Assembly: GCA_037200845.1 (NCBI GenBank)
Contig: JBBCGQ010000001.1
Span: forward strand, 1,984,001 to 2,048,000
DNA from: Bauldia sp.
GTDB lineage: Bacteria; Pseudomonadota; Alphaproteobacteria; Rhizobiales; Kaistiaceae
Direction: 5' to 3'
DNA length: 64,000 bases
Shown: positions 260-18,669 of the stretch, piece after piece
How the letters are laid out: every line of letters starts with the position of its first letter
Numbering within the stretch: position 1 is the stretch's first letter
Program-made: the position numbers and the translations under genes
The notes under the pieces: generated by a model
What the model was told of the DNA's origin: nothing
What the model saw: only the letters and a program-made list of their open reading frames with translations
Database searches by the model: none

Positions 260-315
260 TGGGTTTGATTGATCGTTTGGAGCGGGAACAGCCGGTTTTA
301 TGCGGGAACGAATGG
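260..315. repeat. Terminal MuA-binding-type repeats, left side of the element
   Basis: Read inward, 260-282 is TGGGTTTGATTGATCGTTTG followed by GAG. It matches the opposite end with the shared core TGATCGTTTG. A second motif, GAACGAATGG at 305-314, resembles GCGAATGGAG read inward at 9677-9686. Paired recognition sites near each end are what MuA-type transposases bind. The assignment rests on sequence similarity between the two ends only. Confidence 0.6.
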
Positions 316-347
316 AAGCCGTCGCCATCAGATCGCATTTGGCGAGG

Positions 348-929
348 TCAGGGGTTCGTGCTGCCGTTCGCCCGACCGGCCGCAAGCGCCACCGCAAAGG
401 CGGCCTCAGGTATGCCGAGGCGCCGCGCTAGCTGTCGCTCAAAGTCGGAAAGCGGCGGCGTCTCATCAGCGCCGGCCAGCAGGTGATTCAGAGCTGCCAT
501 CCCCCTAATGTTTGGAACGTTAGTTAGCGAGGCTCGCAACACTCGCTCGATCGTGCCATCTGCCGTGACGGCTATGACAGGCGAGATAAAGCGGTAGGCA
601 CGGTCGGCTAGCAACTTGGCGCCGCTGATTGTCCATTCTACCCGACCCCATATTCCGTCAGCGCGCGGTTCAAGCGCGACGATCCAACCACGAGCCGGCG
701 CCGACGCTCCCTTAGATGCTGCAAGGTCGGTGGCGTGGTTTTCGTCAATAAGAAGGCGATCAGTCGCGGCGAGACTCTCACTCGCGACCCTCGCCGGCGA
801 AACGAGGTTGTATGGGCCACGCCCATCAACCGTTGTAATCTGCCCGACAGGCGTGAGCTGTATCCAATCCGGCGGCCCGGCCGGCAACTGCTGCCCAGAA
901 CAAATTGCTATCGCCGTTCCTGTCGTCAC
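348..929 (-). CDS. Mu-like head maturation protease (gp I), C-terminally short
   Basis: The 193-residue product resembles the N-terminal half of Mu gpI, the prohead protease that processes scaffold during capsid assembly. Typical features are the opening IQLTPVGQITTVDGRGPY, the DRLLIDENHATD block, ARGWIVALEPRADGIWGRVEW and the YRFISPVI segment followed by SLTNVPNIRGM. Family members are usually well over 300 residues with a C-terminal scaffold part, so this copy is truncated or reduced; it ends 88 bp from the element boundary. In Mu the protease lies just upstream of the major head gene, but here it follows the tape measure, a clear rearrangement. Probably a non-functional remnant. Confidence 0.75.
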   Translation of the reverse strand: MTTGTAIAICSGQQLPAGPPDWIQLTPVGQITTVDGRGPYNLVSPARVASESLAATDRLLIDENHATDLAASKGASAPARGWIVALEPRADGIWGRVEWTISGAKLLADRAYRFISPVIAVTADGTIERVLRASLTNVPNIRGMAALNHLLAGADETPPLSDFERQLARRLGIPEAAFAVALAAGRANGSTNP

Positions 930-984
930 GCCTTAGCCCATAGTCCGACGCTGGAAGCCCGAAGGCGCAATGAGCGGTTCGGGC

Positions 985-2772
985 TCATCGAGTGCGGCGC
1001 CGCATGTTGTAAGTGCCCTCTATCGTGCGGGCTAGACTCCCACCGCTCTGGATGTCCTCCGTGACAGCAGCGATGACGATACGTTGAATGTTGACGCCGC
1101 CTTCGTTGCGCACTCCCCCGTCCTTCACTGGCGAGCCGCTCTCGTTGACGATCTCAAGTTTCCAAGGCGGCCCACCACGTGCCGAACCGCTGCCAAACGC
1201 GGCGTCCGCGCCAACGTAGCCGCCATCGGCGAACCGCTGCAGGGGCGGATAATTGTTGATTGCTTCGAGCATCGGCCGGTGGCGCGCCGTCGCCGCCGCA
1301 TTGACGATGAACTCCCCGTTCGAAACGCGCGCAACGATGCTATCCGAGGTGCCCGTCCCTGGTCCTCTCAACATCCCGCCAGCTGCGTTTAAACCGCCCC
1401 ACGCGTAGCCTGTTGCTGCCGATCCGACGCCGCCGAGTATCGAGCCGCCCATGTAGGAAGACGACCCAGCCAGCTTGGCAAAGAGGCCGTCGATCGCCTG
1501 ATCGAGAGCCATGTCCAAAAGACGATCGCCAAGGCGACCGAAAGCATTCCCGAGAGCGTCGATCGCAGACACCCCGGCTTTTGCGTCAGCACGGAGCCCT
1601 CCAACAAAGCCGGATACGAGATCACGGCCAACGCTCAGCTTTTCGTTCAAGGCCGATACCGCGCTTGTTGCAGCCCCGAAATCCACGAGTGAGATCGGCG
1701 GACCAATCTTAGCGGGGGCAGGAACATCCTGTGACTTACGGGGCGTAAACGCATCTTCGAAACGACTCTGCAGACCCTTTGACATCTGGCCGCTGACGCC
1801 TGCGAGCTGCGCGCGCAAACTGTCCATGCCGGACGCTTTTTGCATCGTGCCGTTCAGAGCGTCGATCGCCTTTTGCGCGTCCTGCACTCGACCTGAAAAG
1901 GCCAGCGCATTGTCGCTGGCGTTCTGCAATTGAACGGCGTAGCGCCTCACCGGCTCATACGACGACGCCGTACCGATAGCGTCGAGTTTCGCGCGATACG
2001 CTTCGATCGTGATCGCACCACGGGCGGCTTGTTGATTGAGATTAAATAGAGCCTGCAATTCCTCAGCGTAAGGTCGCCCGACAACCTGACCCCGGAAGTC
2101 GAGTGACGATTGTGCGAGGGCGCCGCGCGCCGCCGCGAAGTTACGCTGTTGGGTGTCCAAATCCTGCTGGGCCTGCAGCAGGGTGACGCCCGCGATCTTC
2201 TTACCCCAGTCTTCCGCTGCGCCACCGGCGAGCTGGTACTGCTCACGCACCGCCTTGACCAAATCCTCGTGCCGTTGAAGGGCATCGCTTGCACTCTCGC
2301 TGCCTCCCGCGATCGTTCGGAACAGCAATGAGGCCGCGCCGCCGGCCGCGGCAAATGCCAGAACCGCCAAGTTCAGCGGATTGGTGACAAATGAGAGGAG
2401 CGCGGCACCAACTCCCTTTAGAGCCGCAGCAACGCCGACGCCTGGTCCAAATATCTGGCTGATCTGCATCCCTTGCTGCATTAGCATGACGAACGGGCTT
2501 TGCCCGCTGGCAAGCATCGTTGCCATGTCGTTCATCTGGAACGCCATGTTCTGCATCTGGAAGGAGTTGAGTTTGAACGCCTGGCTTGCGACACCGGCGG
2601 CGCCCGCCGCCTGTTGCCAGCGTGACGACATCGCAGACGATTGCGCCTCGATCGCGCGAGTTCCAGCGACCGACGCCTTGCCAACATTTTCAATCGCCGC
2701 GGCGGCCGTGTTAGCTGCCTTGGCTGCGCCGGTGGCGTCGCCATTGATGATAAGCGAGAGGCGCATGGTCAT
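985..2772 (-). CDS. Phage tail tape measure protein
   Basis: The 595-residue protein has the composition of a short tape measure. There is an Ala-rich helical N-terminus, hydrophobic segments around residues 105-155 (GVAAALKGVGAALLSFVTNP and LAVLAFAAAGGAASLLF), a long helical middle rich in Ala and Gln, and a C-terminal Gly-rich block with the recurrent tape-measure motif RGPGTGTSDSIVARVSNGEF. In Mu-like and other siphovirus tails such proteins set tail length and help DNA entry. The ATG at 2770-2772 overlaps the stop of the upstream gene (ATGA), so the two are translationally coupled. A second ATG two codons later is also possible. No tail tube or baseplate gene follows. Confidence 0.85.
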   Translation of the reverse strand: MTMRLSLIINGDATGAAKAANTAAAAIENVGKASVAGTRAIEAQSSAMSSRWQQAAGAAGVASQAFKLNSFQMQNMAFQMNDMATMLASGQSPFVMLMQQGMQISQIFGPGVGVAAALKGVGAALLSFVTNPLNLAVLAFAAAGGAASLLFRTIAGGSESASDALQRHEDLVKAVREQYQLAGGAAEDWGKKIAGVTLLQAQQDLDTQQRNFAAARGALAQSSLDFRGQVVGRPYAEELQALFNLNQQAARGAITIEAYRAKLDAIGTASSYEPVRRYAVQLQNASDNALAFSGRVQDAQKAIDALNGTMQKASGMDSLRAQLAGVSGQMSKGLQSRFEDAFTPRKSQDVPAPAKIGPPISLVDFGAATSAVSALNEKLSVGRDLVSGFVGGLRADAKAGVSAIDALGNAFGRLGDRLLDMALDQAIDGLFAKLAGSSSYMGGSILGGVGSAATGYAWGGLNAAGGMLRGPGTGTSDSIVARVSNGEFIVNAAATARHRPMLEAINNYPPLQRFADGGYVGADAAFGSGSARGGPPWKLEIVNESGSPVKDGGVRNEGGVNIQRIVIAAVTEDIQSGGSLARTIEGTYNMRRRTR

Positions 2773-3110
2773 CGTGAGGAATTTCTAGCTACGCGCGTTT
2801 TCGTCACCGCTTCTATGTAGGTGTGAATAAGCGCCAGTCGTGCGAACGGCAGGTCGATCACCTGATCACGCAAAGAGTCGCTGTAAGGGATAGCAACGCC
2901 GGCGTCGTCAACCAGATCGTCGAGGGTGATAATCGCGGCCTGCAGAAATTTCCTCGTGTCCGCTGACGATGAGGGGGCGAATTGCGCAACTTCATCGACG
3001 GAGAGCACTCGAAACGTCGCCTTGAATGTCTCGACGCGGAATCCGCCATTCGAGGGAACGTTGACAGACACCGCATGGGTGAACGCCAAATTAGTCGTCA
3101 AAGTGAACAC
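2769..3110 (-). CDS. Probable phage tail assembly chaperone
   Basis: The product is 113 residues. I place the start at the GTG (3108-3110) because GAGGAA lies seven bases upstream; longer in-frame versions lack such a site. The N-terminal part is beta-rich (FTLTTNLAFTHAVSVNVP, FRVETFKATFRVL) and the C-terminal part helical (FLQAAIITLDDLVDDAG, LRDQVIDLPFARLALIHTYI). This layout, and the position directly before the tape measure with an ATGA overlap, fits the tail assembly chaperones that bind tape measure protein. There is no strong family motif, so function is inferred mostly from context. The 179 bp upstream (3111-3289) hold no convincing gene; a reading frame with LFRRAGFLDEGKLTPK may be debris of a deleted late gene. 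Confidence 0.55.
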   Translation of the reverse strand: MFTLTTNLAFTHAVSVNVPSNGGFRVETFKATFRVLSVDEVAQFAPSSSADTRKFLQAAIITLDDLVDDAGVAIPYSDSLRDQVIDLPFARLALIHTYIEAVTKTRVARNSSR

Positions 3111-3289
3111 AGCGTTGTTCCTCGCGTTTGTTGCGACAGCTGGCGCGCACAAGACGTGGAGAATGGAGCGACGGTCGTCATTCGGAACCCTCAACCATCG
3201 CTCCGCTCTCCTCTCTGTTCCGGCTCGTCGTTTTCGGCGTCAGCTTCCCCTCGTCAAGGAACCCGGCACGCCGAAACAGAGTTTTCCGA

Positions 3290-4213
3290 CTAGCCCAACC
3301 AGGCGGTGACGATCGGCTTGGCCGTGCCCGCCCACTCGTTCTGAATTGCGACCGGCGTGTCGTCATCGCCGACAAGCTCGATACGGGTGCCATTGTTGAG
3401 CAGCCGCATCGCCGCACCTTCCAGCGATGACGGCACGACAAGAATGTTTGGCTTCACGTTCAACGGCCGCCCTTCATCGCCCGTAATGGTCGCCATCGCC
3501 GCACGGGCCGCTTCATAGTTTGCCGGCGTCAGAGCGGCCTTCGAAGCATAGGCCAGCTGCCACAGGCCGAAACCAACGTTGGAGCGTCCGCGAGTGCCGT
3601 AAACGAACCGATCGTTGAGAAACACTTCCTTGTCGCTGTCGTCGTCGAGCTGGGTGAGTTTATAAGGGATGCGCTCCTGGTAGATGATCGGCTTCATCGC
3701 GCGGGTGGTGTCCAGAAGGAACCACGCCGGCCCGGCGCCATCCTGAAAGTTGCTTACGGAAACAACGGGCGACTGGCCGTTCAATCCAACGGGATGGTCG
3801 GTATCGAAGAAGCTCTGGCCGTCGTAGCACTTCGTGGTGAAGCCGCTCGCAAGCAGCGAGAACACCAACTGGTCGGGATGGTCGGCGGCTGCCCTGCCGA
3901 GTTCCTGAGCGATAGGCGCGAAGACGCCAAGCCGGTCGTCTTCGATGTCCGTTCGCGGAACTTCGATCGTGGATTCGAACAGACGGTTCACGATGGAAAA
4001 ACTGTGGGCCGAAAGATTCTTGATTTGGCGCGGCCCGATCCACTCGCGCACTCCAGGGAACTGACCGAGCCAGCCGTAAATCTCTTCGCGAGTATTAGAC
4101 GGCACGACCATCGCGATCTCGCGATACACCGAGGGCGCCGAAGTCACCCCAATGCTAAAGGCGGTCTTAAACCCCGTGAAGAGTGCGCTGAGAGTCTCTT
4201 TATTGATGATCAT
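3290..4213 (-). CDS. Mu-like major head subunit (gpT)
   Basis: The product is 307 residues, close to the length of Mu gpT (about 305), which forms the icosahedral shell. Family hallmarks are the N-terminus MIINKETLSALFTGFKTAF, then APSVYREIAMVVPSNTREE, YGWLGQFPGVREWIG, the RFLESTIEVPR-like block (here NRLFESTIEVPRTDIEDD) and FDTDHPVG. The ATG at 4211-4213 is chosen over an upstream in-frame ATG because it has a strong site (AGGAAAAGGAA) and begins at the conserved N-terminus. The start overlaps the Mor stop as ATGA. In Mu many genes separate mor from T, so the junction marks a large deletion or a rebuilt late region. Confidence 0.9.
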   Translation of the reverse strand: MIINKETLSALFTGFKTAFSIGVTSAPSVYREIAMVVPSNTREEIYGWLGQFPGVREWIGPRQIKNLSAHSFSIVNRLFESTIEVPRTDIEDDRLGVFAPIAQELGRAAADHPDQLVFSLLASGFTTKCYDGQSFFDTDHPVGLNGQSPVVSVSNFQDGAGPAWFLLDTTRAMKPIIYQERIPYKLTQLDDDSDKEVFLNDRFVYGTRGRSNVGFGLWQLAYASKAALTPANYEAARAAMATITGDEGRPLNVKPNILVVPSSLEGAAMRLLNNGTRIELVGDDDTPVAIQNEWAGTAKPIVTAWLG

Positions 4214-4656
4214 GGCAATTCCTTTTCCTCGCGTAGCCGCGTTCTGATCCGCGTAATGGTCCGTTCGGTGACGCCGAAGTGGCGAGCGATCACGCGCGCA
4301 CTCTCTCCACGTCGGGTCATGTCGCGCACGGCCAGCCAACGTTCAAATTGATGGAAGGAATAGCGAGACTGCAGATTCACGTAGCCCCCGAGGTAGGGCG
4401 AGAAATTCCGGCAGAGCTTTGTCGCTTCGTCCTGTCCGAGCAGGCCAACCAGCCAATGACTGCTCTCCAGGCGGCGCACCGTTGGGATGTAAATGCGAGT
4501 GCCACCGCGAGCCGTCAGAAGCGCGTCGGCCGCGGAAGGACCGACGACGCGCGCAATCTCGGCGAGGGTGATCCTTACGCATCTAGAGCTGATGGCCGGC
4601 TGGCGTTGCCGCGCCACGTTCGTCCGAGTTGAGCCAGAAAGGTGTCCTACCGACAT
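4210..4656 (-). CDS. Mor-family transcriptional activator
   Basis: The 148-residue protein matches the Mor/C family, which in Mu turns on middle transcription. The central dimerisation part contains LAEIARVVGPSAADALLTA, GGTRIYIPTVRR and HWLVGLLGQDEATKLC, followed by a helix-turn-helix near the C-terminus (ARVIARHFGVTERTITRIRTRL). The GGxxIYIP motif is typical. It follows gemA on the same strand after a 185-bp gap. It overlaps the major head gene by 4 nt, so this activator would be co-translated with a late gene, unlike in Mu. The N-terminal start is uncertain because no clear ribosome site precedes the ATG. Confidence 0.8.
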   Translation of the reverse strand: MSVGHLSGSTRTNVARQRQPAISSRCVRITLAEIARVVGPSAADALLTARGGTRIYIPTVRRLESSHWLVGLLGQDEATKLCRNFSPYLGGYVNLQSRYSFHQFERWLAVRDMTRRGESARVIARHFGVTERTITRIRTRLREEKELP

Positions 4657-4841
4657 GGCCCAGACTTATCGCGCCAAATGCGCGCGTGTCAGCCCGACAA
4701 CTGTCAGGCTACTGTCGAGTAGGAGAACCCAAGGTCTAGAGCGCCGCATCGCTCCGCCGCTCCGCGCGGGCCCTTAGGATGCGGCCCAGCCCACGCGGGC
4801 ACATCGTACTAGCGCGACCACCCGAGCCGGCCCAGCCTGTT
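4657..4841. other. Non-coding gap between gemA and mor
   Basis: This 185-bp stretch has no supported reading frame. By analogy to Mu it is where a promoter for mor could lie, but no clear -35/-10 pair stands out. Nothing else is visible. Confidence 0.4.
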
Positions 4842-5333
4842 TTAAACCCGTTTTACGGCGATGCTTTTGTCTGCCCGGCCGACGCTGGCGCGTCGAAGCC
4901 CGATTTTACATTGCTTTCGGCCGGCCATCGCCTTGAGGCCGGTAATTGCCTTGCTCGCCGCCCCTGCGGTCAGGAACCGGAGTGCGGAGACGGCATAGTG
5001 CCGTTCAAGCCACCGATTGATTGCCGCCTCATCCTGCGGAGCGCTTTCTGACCACTCCGCCCAAAGCTTTCGGATCAACCCGATCTGTCGCGGTGACGCC
5101 ATGCCTGCTCGGGAGCCAAAGCCCCGCTTCGCCGAAGTGGACTGAAAGCCCAGCTCGGCGAAGCGGTGCATAACCATCGTGAAACCGGCGGCATCAAGGT
5201 CGCTGGCGCTCTCGACCCCGCCACCATGACTTGCGAGGATCGCGCGATAGTCGCCGTCATCGAGAGCCAGCCGGCTCTTCGCAACGTGCAAGAGAGCCAG
5301 CTGTTTACCTGATATCGCGCGCGCCACGGTCAT
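4842..5333 (-). CDS. GemA/gp16-family protein
   Basis: The 163-residue product resembles Mu gp16/GemA, an early regulatory protein reported to affect host gene expression and DNA topology. Characteristic parts are the N-terminal helical QLALLHVAKSRLALDDGDYR block and, after a linker, ASPRQIGLIRKLWAEW followed by INRWLERHYAVSALRFL near residues 105-140. The C-terminus is basic (KQCKIGLRRASVGRADKS). The start ATG overlaps the upstream stop as ATGA, so it is part of the early operon running from the Ner-like gene. Reliable as a family call; its role here is unknown. Confidence 0.85.
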   Translation of the reverse strand: MTVARAISGKQLALLHVAKSRLALDDGDYRAILASHGGGVESASDLDAAGFTMVMHRFAELGFQSTSAKRGFGSRAGMASPRQIGLIRKLWAEWSESAPQDEAAINRWLERHYAVSALRFLTAGAASKAITGLKAMAGRKQCKIGLRRASVGRADKSIAVKRV

Positions 5334-5665
5334 GCTACCGCCTGCCTCGGCCGAGGTGCTCGCTTCGCCTTGCGCTTCTCGACGCCCTCAAAAATCATCG
5401 CCATTGCCCGCAGATGTGCTCCACGCGCAGTCTCGATCTTATTGATGACTCGACGCAGCCGCCGCATTTGCTCTTCGGTGTTTTCGAACGCGGCCGCTAT
5501 AAAAGCGATCAGGTCGCCCTCCCTCTTCGGGCTGCCGAGCGTGTGCTGATTTATTAGGGCGCCGAAGGCGTATTGCGTTCCCGCCCACCGGGGCGGAAGC
5601 ACATCAACTGCATCCAACAGCTCGGACAGCAGAGCGTCAGCGTCATAGTCGTCTTGCGTCGTCAT
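5330..5665 (-). CDS. Small early phage protein, function unknown
   Basis: The product is 111 residues, acidic at the N-terminus (MTTQDDYDADALLSELLDAV) and strongly basic at the C-terminus (RKAKRAPRPRQ). Between them is a probable helical segment (ENTEEQMRRLRRVINKIETA). I do not recognise a family. It sits between the MuB-side small gene and gemA and overlaps gemA by 4 nt (ATGA), which supports its being a real, translated early gene. Confidence 0.6.
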   Translation of the reverse strand: MTTQDDYDADALLSELLDAVDVLPPRWAGTQYAFGALINQHTLGSPKREGDLIAFIAAAFENTEEQMRRLRRVINKIETARGAHLRAMAMIFEGVEKRKAKRAPRPRQAVA

Positions 5666-5691
5666 CGGTCGCGTGGCCTCCTAAGCCGGTG

Positions 5692-5910
5692 CTATTGAAT
5701 TTTGTCGGGGTGATTGAACGCCTCGAACAGTGCCGAAAGCCGGCTGTTCACCTGTCGCGCCCAGATCTGGTTGCCCTTCTCCTGGTACGTGGAGAAGGCG
5801 TTGTTGTCGGCGACGATCGCCCTGATGGTCTCGTGCTGGGCATGGACAACCGCGCGCAGTTCATCAATCGTCAAATGGTCGATATCGGGCAGCTCCGTTT
5901 TCTCTTCCAA
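5692..5910 (-). CDS. Small early phage protein after MuB, function unknown
   Basis: I place the start at TTG (5908-5910) because AGGGAG lies about nine bases upstream and the only upstream ATG falls deep inside the MuB gene. This gives 72 residues: a Glu-rich beginning (LEEKTELPDIDHLTIDELRA) and a helical remainder ending in FEAFNHPDKIQ. It starts 5 nt after the MuB stop and is in the same operon. No family is recognised; small helical proteins are common at this position in Mu-like early regions. Confidence 0.5.
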   Translation of the reverse strand: MEEKTELPDIDHLTIDELRAVVHAQHETIRAIVADNNAFSTYQEKGNQIWARQVNSRLSALFEAFNHPDKIQ

Positions 5911-5914
5911 TCGT

Positions 5915-6700
5915 TCAATCTCCCTTCGGGTTGAGAATTTCGTTCGTGCGCTTAGGCCCATGAATTGACGCCAAGGCCTCGTGCAGAGCCGCAAGTCGGA
6001 TCGAGCCGCCTTCGCCGGCGAACGTGCGGGCCTCATCCAGGAGACGGGCCAGTTCGCGTAACGATGCTTGCCGCCCGTAGCGGACCAGCAGCTCGTGCGC
6101 TTCGCGACCCTCGACGTTGGCATCGATCGCGAACTCGCGAATGTCGTCAGCGCTCACGCCGTCGATGATGACCCATCTGCCAATGCGGCTACGGACTTGC
6201 TCGATCGCGGACGCGGTGGCGCGTGTGCGCTTCAGCGAATGGCTGTTGCCGGCGAGGATCAGCGGGAGGCGGAACAGCTCAGTGTATTTGCAGAGCTGAA
6301 ACACCGCCTCGGCGTCAAGGAGCTGCACCTCATCCACGACGAGGCACCAGCCATCCGCTACCAGGTACTCAAGATTATATTCGAGGGCGCTTGCGAGATC
6401 GGCCGCGTAGAACGCGTCGGTTGGTATCCGAAACGCGGCAACCGCCATCGCCAGCATCGCCTTGAGACGCCGGTTCGTCGGAGTGACCGTGACGAATGCG
6501 ACCTTTGTGCGCTTGCCGGCGATGTGCGTCAGCGCTGTTGTCTTCCCCACGCCGGCATCGCCGATGATCGCGACGGGCTCAACCAGGCGAGAGGAAACCG
6601 CCGTCTCAAATGCCGCCTCGATGAGACGCACGGTTGTCGTTTTCACGAAGCGCTCCGCTGGAGGTGGAGCAAGGGCTCTCAGTTGAAGATTGAAGGGCAT
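5915..6700 (-). CDS. MuB-type AAA+ ATPase, transposition target selector
   Basis: The 261-residue protein has a Walker A motif GDAGVGKT at residues 47-54 and Walker B VVDE at 121-124. A sensor-type asparagine in LILAGNSHSL follows, and the C-terminal part is helical. MuB binds target DNA as ATP-dependent filaments, stimulates MuA and delivers targets to the transpososome. The N-terminus lacks the separate helix-turn-helix of Mu MuB, as in other reduced members. It begins 3 nt after the transposase stop, so A and B are coupled. All motifs for ATPase activity are present. Confidence 0.9.
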   Translation of the reverse strand: MPFNLQLRALAPPPAERFVKTTTVRLIEAAFETAVSSRLVEPVAIIGDAGVGKTTALTHIAGKRTKVAFVTVTPTNRRLKAMLAMAVAAFRIPTDAFYAADLASALEYNLEYLVADGWCLVVDEVQLLDAEAVFQLCKYTELFRLPLILAGNSHSLKRTRATASAIEQVRSRIGRWVIIDGVSADDIREFAIDANVEGREAHELLVRYGRQASLRELARLLDEARTFAGEGGSIRLAALHEALASIHGPKRTNEILNPKGD

Positions 6701-6703
6701 CGT

Positions 6704-8746
6704 TCACTTCCCCCGATTGACCATGCGCTGCCGCTTCTCAGCGAGCCGAAGCGCCTCAGCCTGGTTGGTGTCGATCTCGCGCGCGCGACGGTCCTTGCGA
6801 TCGGCGGGCGTCTCGCGAAGGCCCGCTGCGATACGCGCGGCCTCGCTACTCGCCCCGACCGTCGCGACGATCGGCGGCGCCGCCGCGGGAGGCTGGTTGC
6901 TCAACAGCTTGGCGCGCTCGGCGAGCGGATCGATTTCCGGCGCCGATCGGCCCAACGCGATCACCGCACCGCGGTGCGCCTTCCTTCTGGCGTGCGCGTC
7001 GATAGCTCCGGCGTCATCCAGAAAACCATAAGCGATGTCCGGCTCCGCGAAGCCGATCAGCTCGCCCGCCTCGTTGAAGAGCGGCAGGCGGGACCATTCT
7101 TCAAATTTGGGAATGCGGACGATCAACGTGTCGCCTTGGAACGTCACAATCTCGGGGCATGTCCAGAGCTTGCCGGCGTGGCGGATGCGTCCTTGCTGAA
7201 CCGTGCGCCGCGCCTCGGTGGAGAAAGCGATCGCGAAGGCATCGGGATCGACAGCAACGGTGCCCCAACCCGCCGCGATCGCATCGGCGAGTGCGCCGTT
7301 CGGAGAGCGGCCGTTCAGCGATCCGCGCTGCGGCATGTTGTGATAGTAGTCGAGGGCGCTGAGGATCAGCGCCCGGCATTCGTCGGGCGAGCCGTCGAAC
7401 GGCTCCGGCTCCTGTCCGACGTTCGCGCTTTTCTTGCGCATACGGTCGCCGCCGATCCAGCCAGGCACGCGCGAAAAGTGGTTACGTTCGAGGACGGCAA
7501 AGATGCCTTCGATCGGCTTTGCAGAGGCGTTGTAGGGAAGCGCCCGCACGATCTGGGAGAGGCGATCGCCGCCGCCAATCTCGCCGATGAAGCTGCGCCC
7601 GCTCGACCTGTCGATGAGCCTTAATGCGTCGTCGATGAACGGCGCCCAATTGTATTCGCTGCCGTTGTCCAGATAGAGCGCGCGCGGCGCACCCCAGGCG
7701 GCGACCATGCGTCGGAAGCTGACGATCACATGGGCGTTGCGGATGCCCTCGCCCTTTGCCAGCAGCACGAGATCCATCCAGACGCGATTGGTGGCAAGGT
7801 CCAGCCACGCGATCGCCCGGAAAGTGGCGATCGACCCGTCGTTGCGGCGCACGAGAATATCGACCGGGTGAATGTCGCCGACGACGCAATCCATCGGCGA
7901 CAAGCCGACGCGCGTCCGCATGATGCGCGGCGCCGCGTGATCCATGTAGCTTTTCCGATCGGTCCTGAATTCGTGGACCTTGGCGTACACCCGCTCGGGA
8001 TCGATGAAGGCTCGCGGCACGCAACAGACGCCGCCTAGGTCACCGCTGCGATAGCCCGCCTGTGACGTCAGCTCGCAGAGTTTGAAGGTCGCCAGCCGTT
8101 GAAGGCTGACACCGCTTTCGCCCGCCTTGAACAGCCCGCGAACGTACATGCGCAGCTGCTCGGCGATGTCCTGGCGCACCAGCTCGGGTAGCTCGGCTGT
8201 TGCCCGATTCCAGCGCAGCGAAACAAGCCCGTGCCGCTCGCCTCGGTCGCGCCTGGCGCGCTTCTGCAGTCCGGCGTGGCCCCCACGATCGTACCGGCTC
8301 AGCCAACGCCGCAAAGTCGCGGTGCTCACCGTGCGGGGTGTCGTGTCACCAGGGAAAAGGTAGGTGCGGCTCGTGATCTCCGCGACGGCCCCCGCCCGCC
8401 CGCGCGTGCCGGAACGATGCCTCGCGGCAGGTTCGATCAACTGCCAAATGAAGTTGCGCGATGCGTTGGCGTCTGGGTCACTGCGCAGCGAGATCGCGCC
8501 CATCTCGGCCGCCAGCAACTCACGGTGCCGCTGCTGCAGGTCGGCCGGCATCGACGAGGCAAGAACCTCATAACGGAGTCCGGCACGGCCGCCTCGACCG
8601 GACACAGTTCGAATGCGCAGCGCAGCACCGCGCCATGTCGGCCGCCCGCCCAAGACGATTGTTTGAAGGGCCTTTTCAATGGCCTGGCGAGAAGTCCCCG
8701 CCAGGGCCGCCAAACGAGCCGATGCGATCCATTCCGCAACCGGCAT
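6704..8746 (-). CDS. MuA-type DDE transposase
   Basis: The product is 680 residues, like Mu MuA (663). The N-terminus (EWIASARLAALAGTSRQAIE) is a winged-helix-type DNA-binding start, and a further helix-turn-helix region (TVSTATLRRWLSRYDRGG) lies near residues 139-155. The integrase core shows the acidic triad: D291 in VVGDIHPVDI, D360 in LYLDNGSEYNW and E413 in AKPIEGIFAVLER. After it come the beta-barrel region and a basic C-terminal tail used to contact MuB. It catalyses end cleavage and strand transfer, recognising sites such as those near 260-315 and 9672-9734. The triad and length are intact, so the enzyme could be active. Confidence 0.93.
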   Translation of the reverse strand: MPVAEWIASARLAALAGTSRQAIEKALQTIVLGGRPTWRGAALRIRTVSGRGGRAGLRYEVLASSMPADLQQRHRELLAAEMGAISLRSDPDANASRNFIWQLIEPAARHRSGTRGRAGAVAEITSRTYLFPGDTTPRTVSTATLRRWLSRYDRGGHAGLQKRARRDRGERHGLVSLRWNRATAELPELVRQDIAEQLRMYVRGLFKAGESGVSLQRLATFKLCELTSQAGYRSGDLGGVCCVPRAFIDPERVYAKVHEFRTDRKSYMDHAAPRIMRTRVGLSPMDCVVGDIHPVDILVRRNDGSIATFRAIAWLDLATNRVWMDLVLLAKGEGIRNAHVIVSFRRMVAAWGAPRALYLDNGSEYNWAPFIDDALRLIDRSSGRSFIGEIGGGDRLSQIVRALPYNASAKPIEGIFAVLERNHFSRVPGWIGGDRMRKKSANVGQEPEPFDGSPDECRALILSALDYYHNMPQRGSLNGRSPNGALADAIAAGWGTVAVDPDAFAIAFSTEARRTVQQGRIRHAGKLWTCPEIVTFQGDTLIVRIPKFEEWSRLPLFNEAGELIGFAEPDIAYGFLDDAGAIDAHARRKAHRGAVIALGRSAPEIDPLAERAKLLSNQPPAAAPPIVATVGASSEAARIAAGLRETPADRKDRRAREIDTNQAEALRLAEKRQRMVNRGK

Positions 8747-8750
8747 CGGA

Positions 8751-8957
8751 CTATCGCCGGAACTGTAGCGTCTCGGGCTCGGTCTTCAATCCAAGGGCAA
8801 CGGCGATACGGTGCACCTCGCCGCGCTTGCACTTCAGTTCACCAGAGAGAACACGATACACCTTGCGCGCATCGAAGCCGTTGGCTCGCGCCCATGTAGT
8901 GATGGCAACGCCCTCAGCCTCGAAGCGAGCCTTCACGACCGCAACTTTGTCCGTCAT
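8751..8957 (-). CDS. Ner-like small DNA-binding protein
   Basis: The 68-residue product starts at the ATG 8955-8957 (a GGGATGG stretch is upstream; another ATG two codons earlier is possible). It is almost entirely a lambda-repressor-like helix-turn-helix: VAVVKARFEAEGVAITTWAR, then GFDARKVYRVLSGELKCKRG and a closing IAVALGL helix. Similar small proteins occupy the first early-gene position in Mu-like phages, where Ner represses early and repressor transcription during lytic growth. It faces the repressor gene across a 41-bp gap and ends 4 nt before the transposase. Confidence 0.75.
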   Translation of the reverse strand: MTDKVAVVKARFEAEGVAITTWARANGFDARKVYRVLSGELKCKRGEVHRIAVALGLKTEPETLQFRR

Positions 8958-8998
8958 AGTTCCCATCCCGGTAACCACCCTCGAATGACAATGTGTGA
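8958..8998. promoter_or_regulatory. Divergent early/repressor control region
   Basis: These 41 bp separate the divergent starts of the Ner-like gene and the repressor gene. Promoters for both directions must overlap this short segment or the adjoining coding ends. The control logic (repressor versus Ner) is inferred from the Mu layout; no clear operator repeats are visible inside it. Confidence 0.5.
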
Positions 8999-9523
8999 AT
9001 GAAAAGTCACAAAAAGTCAAAACTGCCATCACCGGACGTGACCGCGGCGGCTTCGCCGCTGGCTTCTGAGGTTGTGGACAGAATGAAGTCGGCGCTCGCT
9101 TTGAAGAACGATAGCGAACTGGCGCGCACGCTCGGCGTGAATCCTTCGACGGTCGCTATGTGGCGAAAGCGGGGATCGGTGCCTTATGAGCAGGCCACCA
9201 AAGTGGCCGCCGAGACAGCATCCTCCATTTCTTATCTTCTCAGCGGGATTGCGCCACAACACGCAGGAACGCCGCTAGCGACCGCCGCCAATGAGAAGAT
9301 CGTAGCGGCGATCTTCCTTCAATTTGAAAGGAGCGGATGGATAGAACTGAAGCCTACGGTGCGGCGAGAGCACGGAGATTTGGCAGCAGACCGAGCGACC
9401 GATTTTCTAGTCTATTTCAGTAATGCGTTGGCGATGTTCGGAGAGATGACCGACAAGCACGGGATGACGGCCAAGGAAGCTGTCGAGCTAGTGGCTCGTT
9501 CGATCTACCCCCCGCGAGCCTGA
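8999..9523 (+). CDS. Phage repressor, CI-type helix-turn-helix protein
   Basis: The 174-residue protein has an N-terminal helix-turn-helix like the phage CI repressor family: VVDRMKSALALKNDSELART, then LGVNPSTVAMWRKRGSVP and YEQATKVAAETASSISYLLS (residues about 23-82). The C-terminal half is helical without the Ser/Lys protease motif of LexA-type repressors, so RecA-driven self-cleavage is not suggested. It is the only plus-strand gene in the element, divergent from the early operon, as Mu c is. It probably keeps the element silent. Three TTGGCCAA palindromes lie just downstream. Confidence 0.85.
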   Translation: MKSHKKSKLPSPDVTAAASPLASEVVDRMKSALALKNDSELARTLGVNPSTVAMWRKRGSVPYEQATKVAAETASSISYLLSGIAPQHAGTPLATAANEKIVAAIFLQFERSGWIELKPTVRREHGDLAADRATDFLVYFSNALAMFGEMTDKHGMTAKEAVELVARSIYPPRA

Positions 9524-9536
9524 GACTATTTTTGGG

Positions 9537-9573
9537 TTGGCCAATGGGTTGGCCAAAGCCCCTGATTGGCCAA
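9537..9573. repeat. Three TTGGCCAA palindromes near the prophage end
   Basis: The 8-bp palindrome TTGGCCAA occurs at 9537-9544, 9549-9556 and 9566-9573, with start-to-start spacings of 12 and 17 bp. A partial copy (AAGGCCAAC) lies near 9637. They lie between the repressor gene and the terminal transposase sites. Possible roles are operator sites for the repressor or Ner-like protein, or host-factor sites in the end complex. This is inference from position and symmetry. Confidence 0.6.
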
Positions 9574-9671
9574 CTCTGATCCTTCACTTCCCCCGCCAAT
9601 CCCCAGCACTTACTCGCTCGGTCAGCTTTATTTGGAAAGGCCAACCTCGCGCGCCGCGCGATTCCGTTATT

Positions 9672-9734
9672 TCCGCTCCATTCGCGATCAAATAAAGCCT
9701 GCAAAACGCGCCTTCAAACGATCATCTAAAGCCA
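9672..9734. repeat. Terminal MuA-binding-type repeats, lexA side
   Basis: On the minus strand reading inward from 9734 the sequence is TGGCTTTAGATGATCGTTTG, matching the left end over the core TGATCGTTTG. A second site, GCGAATGGAGCGG, is reached after a further 28 bp. The inner copies match GAACGAATGG near the left end. The element therefore probably ends at 9734, just before the lexA promoter. Confidence 0.6.
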
Positions 9735-9789: not shown

Positions 9790-9804
9790 GAACACATATA
9801 GAAC
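9790..9804 (+). promoter_or_regulatory. LexA (SOS) box upstream of lexA
   Basis: The sequence GAAC-ACATATA-GAAC is an exact match to the alphaproteobacterial LexA operator (GTTC-N7-GTTC on the other strand). It lies 70 bp upstream of the lexA ATG, as expected for autoregulation by LexA. It is only 56 bp from the inferred prophage end. Confidence 0.9.
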
Positions 9805-9873
9805 AGGTACGTTGTTCTTGCTTTGTACCGCGAGTTGGGCCTGCCCGCCGGGCGGCTTCAAACGGGGACGCCG

Positions 9874-10587
9874 ATGCTGACGCGCAAGCAATACGAACTG
9901 CTCGTTTTTGTTCACGGGCGGCTGAAAGAGACCGGCATTCCGCCCTCCTTCGACGAGATGAAGGACGCGCTGGATTTGCGCTCCAAGTCCGGAATCCATC
10001 GCCTGATCAAAGCGTTGGAGGAGCGCGGCTTCATCAAGCGGCTGCCCAACCGTGCCCGTGCGCTGGAAGTCATCCGTCTCCCCGAGTCGATGCAGCAGGC
10101 GGCCGTCGCCGCAGCCCCTGCCGGGCGCGCTCGCGGCTTCTCGCCCAGCGTCATCGAAGGCAACCTCGGCCGCGTCCGCACCCCGGACAGCGCCAATTCC
10201 AACGAGCCGGTGCTGGTTCCCGTCATGGGCCGCATCGCCGCCGGCTCGCCGATCGAGGCGATCCAGGTGCAGAGCCACGTCATCGGTGTCCCGCCCGACA
10301 TGCTGTCGCCAGGCGAGCATTTCGCGCTCGAAGTGCGCGGCGACTCGATGATCGAGGCCGGCATCTTCGACGGCGACACCGTCCTGATCCGAAAGAGCGA
10401 CACCGCCGAGACCGGCGACATCGTGGTCGCGCTCGTCGATGAGGAAGAAGCGACCTTGAAGCGCCTGCGCAAGAAGGGCGCCTCGATCGCGCTGGAGGCC
10501 GCCAACCCGGCCTACGAGACGCGCATTTTCGGACCGGACCGCGTCCGCATCCAGGGCCGCCTCGTCGGCCTGCTGCGCAAGTACTAG
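9874..10587 (+). CDS. lexA: LexA repressor
   Basis: The 237-residue SOS repressor starts at the ATG 9874, which gives the conserved N-terminus [10 protein letters not shown]; upstream in-frame codons are not conserved. The winged helix-turn-helix covers residues 1-65 ([20 protein letters not shown]). The self-cleavage machinery is complete: Ala-Gly bond at 123-124 in GRIAAGSPI, Ser158 in GDSMIEAG and Lys196 in EATLKRL. RecA filaments on single-stranded DNA trigger cleavage and derepress the SOS genes. The gene is autoregulated through the box at 9790-9804. It is convergent with comEC, only 9 bp away. Confidence 0.97.
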
Positions 10588-16168: not shown

Positions 16169-17494
16169 ATGGCCAACGTCAGCAGAATGGAAGACCACAA
16201 AGTGCCGGATGAGACGGCCAAGCTGACGATAGGCAAGCAGAGTTGGGACCTGAAGATCCGCAAAGGCTCGGTCGGTCCCGACGTCGTCGACATCGGCGCG
16301 CTCTACAGCGAGACCAAGCACTTCACCTACGACCCCGGCTTCACCTCCACCGCCGCCTGCGAATCCGCGATTACCTACATCGACGGCGACGAAGGCATCC
16401 TGCTTTATCGCGGCTATCCGATCGAGCAGCTCGCCGAGCACGGCGACTTCCTCGAGACGTGTTACCTGCTGCTCTACGGCGAACTGCCGACGCCGGCGCA
16501 GAAGGCCGATTTCGACGGCCGCGTCACGTATCACACGATGGTCCACGAGCAGATGAGCCGGTTCTACACCGGCTTCCGCCGCGACGCCCATCCGATGGCG
16601 ATCATGTGCGGCGTCGTCGGCGCCATGAGCGCCTTCTATCACGACTCGACCGACATCGCCGATCCGCAGCAGCGCATGATCGCGAGCCTGCGCCTGATCG
16701 CGAAGATGCCGACGATCGCCGCGATGGCCTTCAAGTATCACGTCGGCCAGCCGTTCGTTTATCCGCTGAACGCGCTCGACTACGCCTCGAACTTCCTGCG
16801 CATGTGCTTCGCCGTGCCGGCCGAGGAGTACAAGGTCAACCCGGTGCTGTCGCGCGCCATGGACCGCATCTTCATCCTGCACGCAGACCACGAGCAGAAC
16901 GCCTCGACCTCGACGGTCCGCCTCGCCGGTTCGTCGGGCGCCAATCCCTTCGCCTGCATCGCCGCCGGCATCGCCTGCCTGTGGGGCCCCGCGCACGGCG
17001 GCGCCAACGAGGCGGCGCTCAACATGCTGCAGCAGATCGGCACCGTCGATCGCATCCCGGAATACATCGCGCGCGCCAAGGACAAGAACGATCCGTTCCG
17101 CCTGATGGGCTTCGGCCACCGCGTCTACAAGAACTACGATCCGCGCGCCAAGATCATGCAGCGCACCTGCCACGAGGTGCTGCAGGAGCTCGGCATTCAG
17201 GACGACCCGCTGCTCGAGGTCGCGCTGGAGCTGGAGCGCATCGCGCTGACCGACTCGTATTTCATCGAGAAGAAGCTCTACCCGAACATCGATTTCTATT
17301 CGGGCATCACGCTGAAGGCGCTGGGCTTCCCGACCACGATGTTCACCGTGCTTTTCGCGGTCGCGCGCACTGTCGGCTGGATCGCGCAGTGGAAGGAGAT
17401 GGTCGAGGACCCGTCGCAGAAGATCGGCCGTCCGCGCCAGCTCTACACCGGCGCGACGCGCCGCGACTACGAGCCGGTCTCCAAGCGCCGCTGA
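16169..17494 (+). CDS. gltA: Citrate synthase (type II)
   Basis: The 441-residue enzyme condenses acetyl-CoA and oxaloacetate, the first step of the TCA cycle. The start is the ATG at 16169 with a purine-rich AGAGAAGAGG upstream; the conserved sequence begins right after ([19 protein letters not shown]). Catalytic signatures are [14 protein letters not shown] (first His), [14 protein letters not shown] (second His) and the FYSG region near residue 375 holding the catalytic Asp. The length and N-terminal beta-sheet domain point to the hexameric, NADH-sensitive Gram-negative type. Its last 28 bp overlap the end of lpxB on the other strand. Confidence 0.96.
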
Positions 17495-18669
17495 GCGGGC
17501 ACCGGCTCCGCCGCCTTCATGGCGGCGAGCACGATGTCGGCGGCGCGCGACGACGGCGTGCCGCTGTCGAGCGTCATCAGGGCCTCGAGACGATCGAACG
17601 CCACCACCTGCGCACGGCGTTGCGGCGTGTCGCTGAGCAGCGGCTCCAGCGCCGCGGCGAGGATCGCCGGGTCGGTGTCGCCATCGAGGAATTCGGGGAT
17701 CGCGTTGTCGCCGAGGATCAGGTTCGGCAGCACGATCGAGTCGGCCTGCAGGAACGACTTGAACGTCCGCAGGAAAATATCGACGCGGTAGCCGACGACC
17801 ATCGGCACTCCCGACAGCGCCAGCTCCAGCGTCACCGTGCCCGACGCGGCCAAGGCCGCATGGGCGCGGCGGAAGGCGGCGTAGGTCGCGACCTCGCCCT
17901 CGACGATCGTCGGCGGCACCGGCCACGAGGCCGCGCGCTCGCGGATCTCGGCGGCGTGGCGCGGAACCGCCGGCAGAATCAATTCGACCGGACCCTGACG
18001 CTGGACGACGAGATTGATCGCGGCGCCGAAACGCTCCATCAGCCGGCCGATCTCGCTTTTGCGACTGCCCGGCAGCACGACCAGCACCGGCTTCCGCCCG
18101 GCGCCCAGCGGCGCGCGCTCGCCTTCCAGCGGCCGCAGGCGCGCCAGCCGCTCAACCAGCGGATGCCCGACGTAGGTCGTCGGCGGCCCGCCCAGGCGCC
18201 GGTGCACCTCCGGCTCGAACGGCAGGATCGCCAGAAGCTGGTCGACATAGCGCGCCATCTTGCGTGCCCGCCCGGGAAAATAGGCCCACACCGACGGCGA
18301 GACGTAGTCGACGATCGGGATGGCCGGATCGCGCGCGCCGACGATACGCCCGACGCGCAGATTGAAACCCGGGCAATCGACCAGCACCAGGACGTCGGGC
18401 TTCGCCGCCACAACCGCGGTCGCTGTCTCGCGGATGCGGCGAAGCAGCCGCGGGGCGTGGATCGCCGCCTCGGTGAAGCCGTGCAGCACGACCTCTTCCA
18501 TCGGAAACATCGAATTGAGGCCGAGCGCGGCCATGCGCGAGCCACCGACACCCTGAAAGCGGACGCGCCCGCCAAGGCGGTCGTTCAGCTCGCGCATCAG
18601 GTTGGCGCCGAGAAGGTCGCCCGACTCCTCGCCGGCGAGAATGAATACGAGCGGCGCGGCGGCGCTCAC
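17467..18669 (-). CDS. lpxB: Lipid-A-disaccharide synthase
   Basis: The 400-residue GT-B glycosyltransferase joins lipid X and UDP-diacylglucosamine to make the lipid A disaccharide at the inner face of the cytoplasmic membrane. The start is a GTG (18667-18669) overlapping the lpxI stop as GTGA; it gives the standard N-terminus [18 protein letters not shown]. Further motifs are [45 protein letters not shown] and the nucleotide-sugar site [20 protein letters not shown]. It is the last gene of the lpxA-lpxI-lpxB run and overlaps gltA by 28 bp tail to tail. Confidence 0.95.

Follow-up and report, generated by a model that had tools for sequence, protein, structure and literature searches.

A compact Mu-type element upstream of lexA in Bauldia sp. 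that looks like a transposable phage satellite

Gene content and ends of the element

We analyzed a window of 64,000 nucleotides, positions 1,984,001-2,048,000 in the single-contig 3.15-Mb genome of Bauldia sp. Near its start the window holds a compact Mu-like element, directly followed by the host lexA gene. The features are as follows, in window coordinates.

260..9734, minus strand: whole element, 9,475 bp, Mu-type ends on both sides (end similarity 19/30)
260..320, plus strand: terminus on the side away from lexA, TGGGTTTGATTGATCGTTTGG, plus another repeat of the GAATGGA type
348..929, minus strand: shortened Mu-like protease I, 193 aa, N-terminal half only (PF10123, 3.7e-36 over 1-168/330; phrog_328)
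985..2772, minus strand: tape measure protein, 595 aa (PF06791, phrog_25241)
2769..3194, minus strand: small tail protein before the tape measure, in the chaperone position (phrog_569)
3290..4213, minus strand: gpT major capsid protein (PF10124, 2.7e-120; PDB 8rkc, 1.7e-104 with the family profile)
4210..4656, minus strand: Mor late activator (phrog_836, 8.5e-18; PF08765)
4842..5333, minus strand: GemA (PF06252, 1.3e-22)
5330..5665, minus strand: 111-aa ORF (no family match in profile or defence-protein libraries)
5692..5910, minus strand: small ORF, the C-terminal part of ORF 5692-6123 (no family match; short ORFs are similarly placed in other elements)
5915..6700, minus strand: MuB-like AAA+ ATPase (phrog_296, 3.2e-25; PF09077)
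6704..8746, minus strand: MuA-like DDE transposase, catalytic D291, D360 and E413 (phrog_310, 6e-45; best fold 4fcy)
8751..9032, minus strand: Ner-like HTH protein (phrog_925, 4e-23)
8999..9523, plus strand: CI-type repressor (PF07022, 1.9e-13)
9660..9734, minus strand: terminus on the repressor/lexA side, TGGCTTTAGATGATCGTTTGAAGG, with a TGATCGCGAATGGAGC repeat
9790..9804, plus strand: LexA (SOS) box GAACACATATAGAAC of the lexA promoter, a host sequence, 55 bp away from the terminus, that belongs to the presumed target
9823..10587, plus strand: host lexA, the presumed target gene, outside the element (PF00717, PF01726)

Both a MuA-type DDE transposase and MuB are thus present. The MuA protein has no Pfam match and was identified through phrog_310. 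Its three catalytic residues are invariant in an alignment of transposases of the same type (A1-type hereafter), and the best fold match of its model (pLDDT 70) is the Mu transpososome 4fcy; TnsB is also among the fold matches. The transposase gene occurs as a single copy in the genome. An earlier note on this DNA had described the repressor, Ner-like, A, B, GemA and Mor genes as intact, and all of these ORFs are indeed open, with the catalytic triad in place. T, the tail chaperone, the tape measure and a shortened protease, given there as the structural genes that remain, are each present as an intact ORF. The protease is encoded after the tape measure (348-929 versus 985-2772, both on the minus strand), as the note had it, and matches only positions 1-168 of the 330 in its profile. 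The shortening is suggestive because the scaffold of phage Mu is also encoded by gene I, in its C-terminal part. Searches of ORFs and profiles between 260 and 9734 detected no terminase, portal, fibre or further tail genes. Among the searched ORFs, there was no tyrosine or serine integrase, MuA/MuB standing in its place, and the defence-protein library gave nothing above noise.

The two termini are of the TG...CA type and resemble each other over 30 bases, with TGGGTTTGATTGATCGTTTGG at 260 and the reversed TGGCTTTAGATGATCGTTTGAAGG at 9734; the coordinates and the matching ends of the earlier note were both exact. Ends at TGATCG (270/9724) were considered and replaced by 260/9734 after a 30-base alignment of the left and right ends. 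No 5-bp target duplication is found at this copy, the flanks being GTTGC and GCGCG. The element is separated from moeA by two genes (L011 10420-12338) that are absent there in relatives; in the three relatives where the site was visible, moeA adjoins lexA. The moeA-side flank was therefore probably rearranged, which can account for the missing duplication. The window copy may thus be rearranged and could be immobile.

Compact relatives and their capsids

The small number of structural genes, the shortened and misplaced protease, the missing target duplication and the rearranged moeA side would all fit a decayed Mu-like prophage that lost its structural genes by deletion or rearrangement, the remaining genes being leftovers. 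Every ORF of the element is intact, however, and relatives bear directly on this reading. Using the transposase and the capsid as probes, we found the same build of ~8.5-10 kb in 12 other elements from different genera, one plasmid and metagenomes: G057, L005, L002, G262, L060, L003, L004 and the IMG/VR contigs L179, L180, L194, L204 and L206. The shared build consists of transposition genes (the G262 element is without a transposase), Mor, a capsid, and a protease/decoration protein and/or a tape measure. No recognised terminase, portal or fibre genes were found in the 12 elements. Five elements that could be delimited measure 8,457-9,959 bp.

Three relatives share the window's order Mor-T-tape measure. 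The G057 element (L051; 8,968 bp) carries repressor, Ner, MuA, MuB, GemA, Mor, T and tape measure; the element of a Bauldia MAG (L005/G004) runs from repressor through tape measure, with T 71% identical; and that of Chelatococcus caeni (L002; 8,457 bp) runs from repressor through T and tape measure. The protease was not recognised in any of these three. The Rhodopseudomonas JSC-3b element (L003; 9,959 bp) has a capsid of another family (phrog_1005), a shortened protease and a tape measure of another family. L004 has Mor, a phrog_1005 capsid and a protease from yet another family; a tape measure was not recognised in it. The Acetobacter aceti plasmid pAACEN2 (L060), which is mobilizable, carries MuA, MuB, GemA, Mor, a shortened protease and T. 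The G262 element (L072; 9,505 bp) has Mor, protease, T, tape measure and three small ORFs. The five IMG/VR elements all hold T and protease and mostly also MuA/MuB, GemA, a decoration protein and Mor, in varying orders. A further element, L053 (G391), is visible only at its start because the contig ends there, and is not counted among the 12. At the end of the pAACEN2 element (16942-17793) lies a gene for a 283-aa protein that matches a small terminase family very weakly.

The gene set is thus not constant between members. Capsid, protease and tape measure belong to different families in different elements, which points to conservation of functions and not of one sequence. The earlier note had proposed to look for compact copies elsewhere with the same gene order: the copies exist, but the exact order is not fixed across the family. 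Full-length Mu-like phages in standard order, as seen in the full-length reference phages examined, were not the sole matches, and the note's alternative picture of a decayed scramble was not right, as the reduced set recurs. The shortened protease recurs as well (193, 202 and 211 aa). A class-wide MuA-profile survey of 385 genomes matched the window's own genome alone. MuA relatives on Mesorhizobium ciceri plasmids were excluded from the family, as they come with SbcCD-type genes and no capsid: in M. ciceri R30 (L059, 10007-17831) the genes behind a MuA/MuB-like pair are SbcD- and SbcC-like, phage genes being absent, and a M. huakuii plasmid (L061) carries a MuA/MuB-like pair without SbcCD directly behind it.

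We then placed the capsids in a tree of 87 gpT sequences, 11 of them from mini-elements. The mini-element labels required 3 changes on the tree versus a mean of 10.5 in shuffles, and 0 of 500 shuffles were as low, showing that the mini-element capsids are not a random draw from phages. All 11 mini-element capsids fell on one branch (support 95/93), which they share with five full-length phages; the other 71 sequences lie outside it. A check confirmed the five as full-length; with them on the branch, the tree does not prove that the satellite capsids form a single lineage. Within the tree, the window, L051 and L005 form a clade (99/95). The two best IMG/VR matches to the mini-element capsids were mini-elements themselves.

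Two elements have perfect 5-bp target duplications. The G057 element sits in the moeA-lexA gap, with TGTGT at both junctions and an empty site in relatives; this duplication emerged on placing the ends further outward. The G262 element splits a cytochrome c peroxidase gene, whose frame is restored when the flanks are joined, and TCTGG is repeated. The duplication in L002 has a one-base slip, and none was found for L003, for which no contiguous empty site was present among the matches listed. A right end of L003 at 18667, a chance 5-bp match, was rejected, as the end repeats lie outside it.

Taken together, the recurrence of this reduced set across many separate insertions, of which two have target duplications, and the clustering of the mini-element capsids away from most phage capsids make decay very unlikely. 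Recurrence largely refutes it.

Candidate helpers and the satellite reading

A full-length Mu-like prophage lies ~72 kb from the element in the same genome (G000:C1 ~1,897,000-1,934,000, L056/L057). It encodes terminase, portal, F, a full protease, T (71% to RC1), a neck protein, a tape measure and a J-type tail protein. Its tape measure has ~824 aa versus 595 aa in the element, and the two are 43-48% identical. The element's protease half is 60% identical to its counterpart and the capsid just 44%, while the small tail protein (2769..3194) is 48% identical to the protein in the same position. We consider this prophage a candidate helper. The G057 genome yielded no gpT besides that of the element, and hence no sign of a resident helper of this type.

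The G262 genome also holds a full-length Mu-like prophage. Its left end matches that of the element (150 bp at 72%), and the tape-measure DNA of the two is 75-76% identical, the prophage protein being ~1,165 aa long and that of the element 1,070 aa. By these similarities, the two are the best putative satellite-helper pair in our data, and mobilization of the transposase-less element in trans would be the straightforward reading. At the usual place of the transposase (L072, G262:C5, 5877-7758, reverse complement) this element has three consecutive small ORFs, two of the three with a MuA N-terminal-type DNA-binding domain. The same end sequence occurs at a third place, G262:C9:2349-2373 (L084), so that the contig end may hold a further prophage or copy of the element.

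What marks a phage satellite, a recurring compact set without most virion genes, was found across the relatives. The system looks built to work like one, with packaging in helper-derived particles as the prediction, and the best reading is that the elements form a family of Mu-type transposable phage satellites, whose use of a helper we infer. Of the two options in the earlier note, a satellite relying on a helper is thus favoured over an element that has lost the particle. MuA/MuB acting on the ends would move the element, and the CI-type repressor would keep it quiet. Mor would switch on a late operon that holds a few, putatively size-setting virion parts: gpT, the C-terminally shortened protease and the shortened tape measure. 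Terminase, portal, the rest of the tail and lysis would be supplied by a full-length Mu-like phage such as the own prophage. The satellite capsid, and in some members the tape measure too, would then give smaller particles matched to a genome of ~9-10 kb. By simple arithmetic, if ~39 kb fit into a Mu-type head with T=7, a shell with T=3 would have room for ~11 kb, which comes near to a 9-10 kb element with some host DNA added.

Alternatively, the element might be an unpackaged transposon-like parasite or defence element, which uses its capsid and tape measure to poison superinfecting Mu-like phages, so that the host is immune, and which spreads by transposition and other vehicles. The lack of terminase and portal is consistent with this, as is the location of one element on a mobilizable plasmid, and capsid homologues can redirect helper assembly, as the SaPIbov5 Ccm protein does (PMC8569155). 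However, Mor-type late control and Mu transposition are kept, the narrow 8.5-10 kb size range suggests a packaging limit, and an interfering protein alone would need no protease, decoration protein or tape measure. We thus regard pure interference as unlikely.

How does the putative Mu-type satellite compare with known systems? Mu-like siphophages of the Rhodobacter RC1, Thiobacimonas ThpS-P1 and JBD24 type share its families of MuA/MuB-type transposition proteins, GemA, Mor, gpT, protease I and tape measure. These phages are 37-40 kb long, however, and carry terminase, portal, tail and fibres in standard order, which the element lacks; unlike in these phages, T directly follows Mor. P4 has a genome of ~10-12 kb and a smaller capsid made with helper parts; its Sid protein alters the helper capsid, and it has an integrase and no capsid gene. 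P4-like satellites would therefore be similar in genome size and in a smaller capsid from helper parts if the satellite model holds, but the window element has MuA/MuB and its own gpT. cfPICIs carry most head and packaging genes. Unlike them, the window element has no terminase and portal, and thus not the own head-packaging genes by which a cfPICI is recognised. PICIs use an integrase at an att site, whereas the window element uses MuA/MuB. By analogy, capsid-forming PICIs and SaPIs with Ccm are likewise small and phage dependent and have their own capsid-type protein (PMC8569155, PMC11389934). By the features tested, the element belongs to none of the PICI, cfPICI and P4 families. The satellite families in a 2024 review are P4-like, PICI, cfPICI, PLE, PICMI, VEIMEs and tycheposons, with no Mu-type family (PMC11389934).

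Insertion upstream of LexA boxes

Of the seven elements with an A1-type transposase, six lie 31-55 bp upstream of a LexA box, defined here as GTTC-N7-GTTC, a pattern that agrees with the Caulobacter LexA consensus (PMC13384398). The adjacent SOS gene is lexA in four cases (window, L005, G057 and L053), recA in L003 and a 28-codon ORF in L004. The gap between box and terminus is 55 bp in the window, 41 bp in L005 and 31 bp in G057, L053, L003 and L004, and in all six the repressor end points toward the SOS gene. The termini were set by the target duplication in G057, by similarity to the L002 terminus in L053 and by similarity of the left and right ends in L003; the L004 terminus was chosen partly by its spacing to the box, and the right end of that element was not found. 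The seventh element, L002, is not at an SOS box. On one strand of the sampled loci, such a box is met about every 53 kb, and the chance of six of seven lying within 60 bp is ~1e-17, a rough figure that counts elements at the same gene as independent.

Four of the seven A1-type elements sit at lexA in different families, which could also result from an ancient domesticated insertion inherited vertically, with T and the tape measure serving the host. Yet occurrence in three families is sporadic (1/30, 1/20 and 2/28 genomes), which together with the empty sites argues against vertical descent. The G057 element has a target duplication and its relatives the empty site, and another element is at recA. 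Domestication is thus extremely improbable.

We infer that the target is marked by LexA or by its operator. The elements with other transposition modules, G262 and L060, are not at SOS boxes, so that targeting appears to belong to the A1-type module. We searched across the elements for a conserved target-selector gene between MuB and GemA and found only weak similarity among the short ORFs. Tn7-like elements and CASTs have a transposase of the same superfamily, as the TnsB fold matches show, and likewise sit at near-fixed spacing and in fixed orientation beside a conserved site. The window element differs in that no TnsD/TniQ-like protein was recognised, that an SOS operator region is the presumed target and that it has phage capsid genes.

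These results suggest that the window element is probably a Mu-type transposable phage satellite that would have smaller particles built by a helper and insert at SOS boxes. A1-type elements would always enter in the same orientation, a short distance upstream of a LexA box, and leave the promoter of the SOS gene intact. With less assurance, we lean toward the view that the family represents an undescribed class of satellites on Mu-type transposition, in which the satellite's own capsid, accompanied by protease, decoration protein or tape measure, would shrink the helper head and, in some members, the tail would be shortened too, one branch being addressed by LexA or its operator at a set distance. 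Neither transposable satellites nor insertion at lexA/recA turned up in the searchable literature, whose coverage leaves out most subscription papers and preprints. With capsid and tape measure but without terminase and portal, such a satellite would allow a direct test of the proteins that determine head size and tail length, and of the origin of capsid-altering parasites. If transposition is indeed directed by operators, this would give transposons a new means of reaching a site that is both safe and widespread, and the insertion would come to lie at the DNA-damage switch of the cell.

The 28-codon ORF of L004 (8730-8865), MSELLQDVVSMVSMSAFLITTALWIGAL, follows two overlapping SOS boxes. In size and composition it is reminiscent of small SOS membrane peptides such as Caulobacter SidA.
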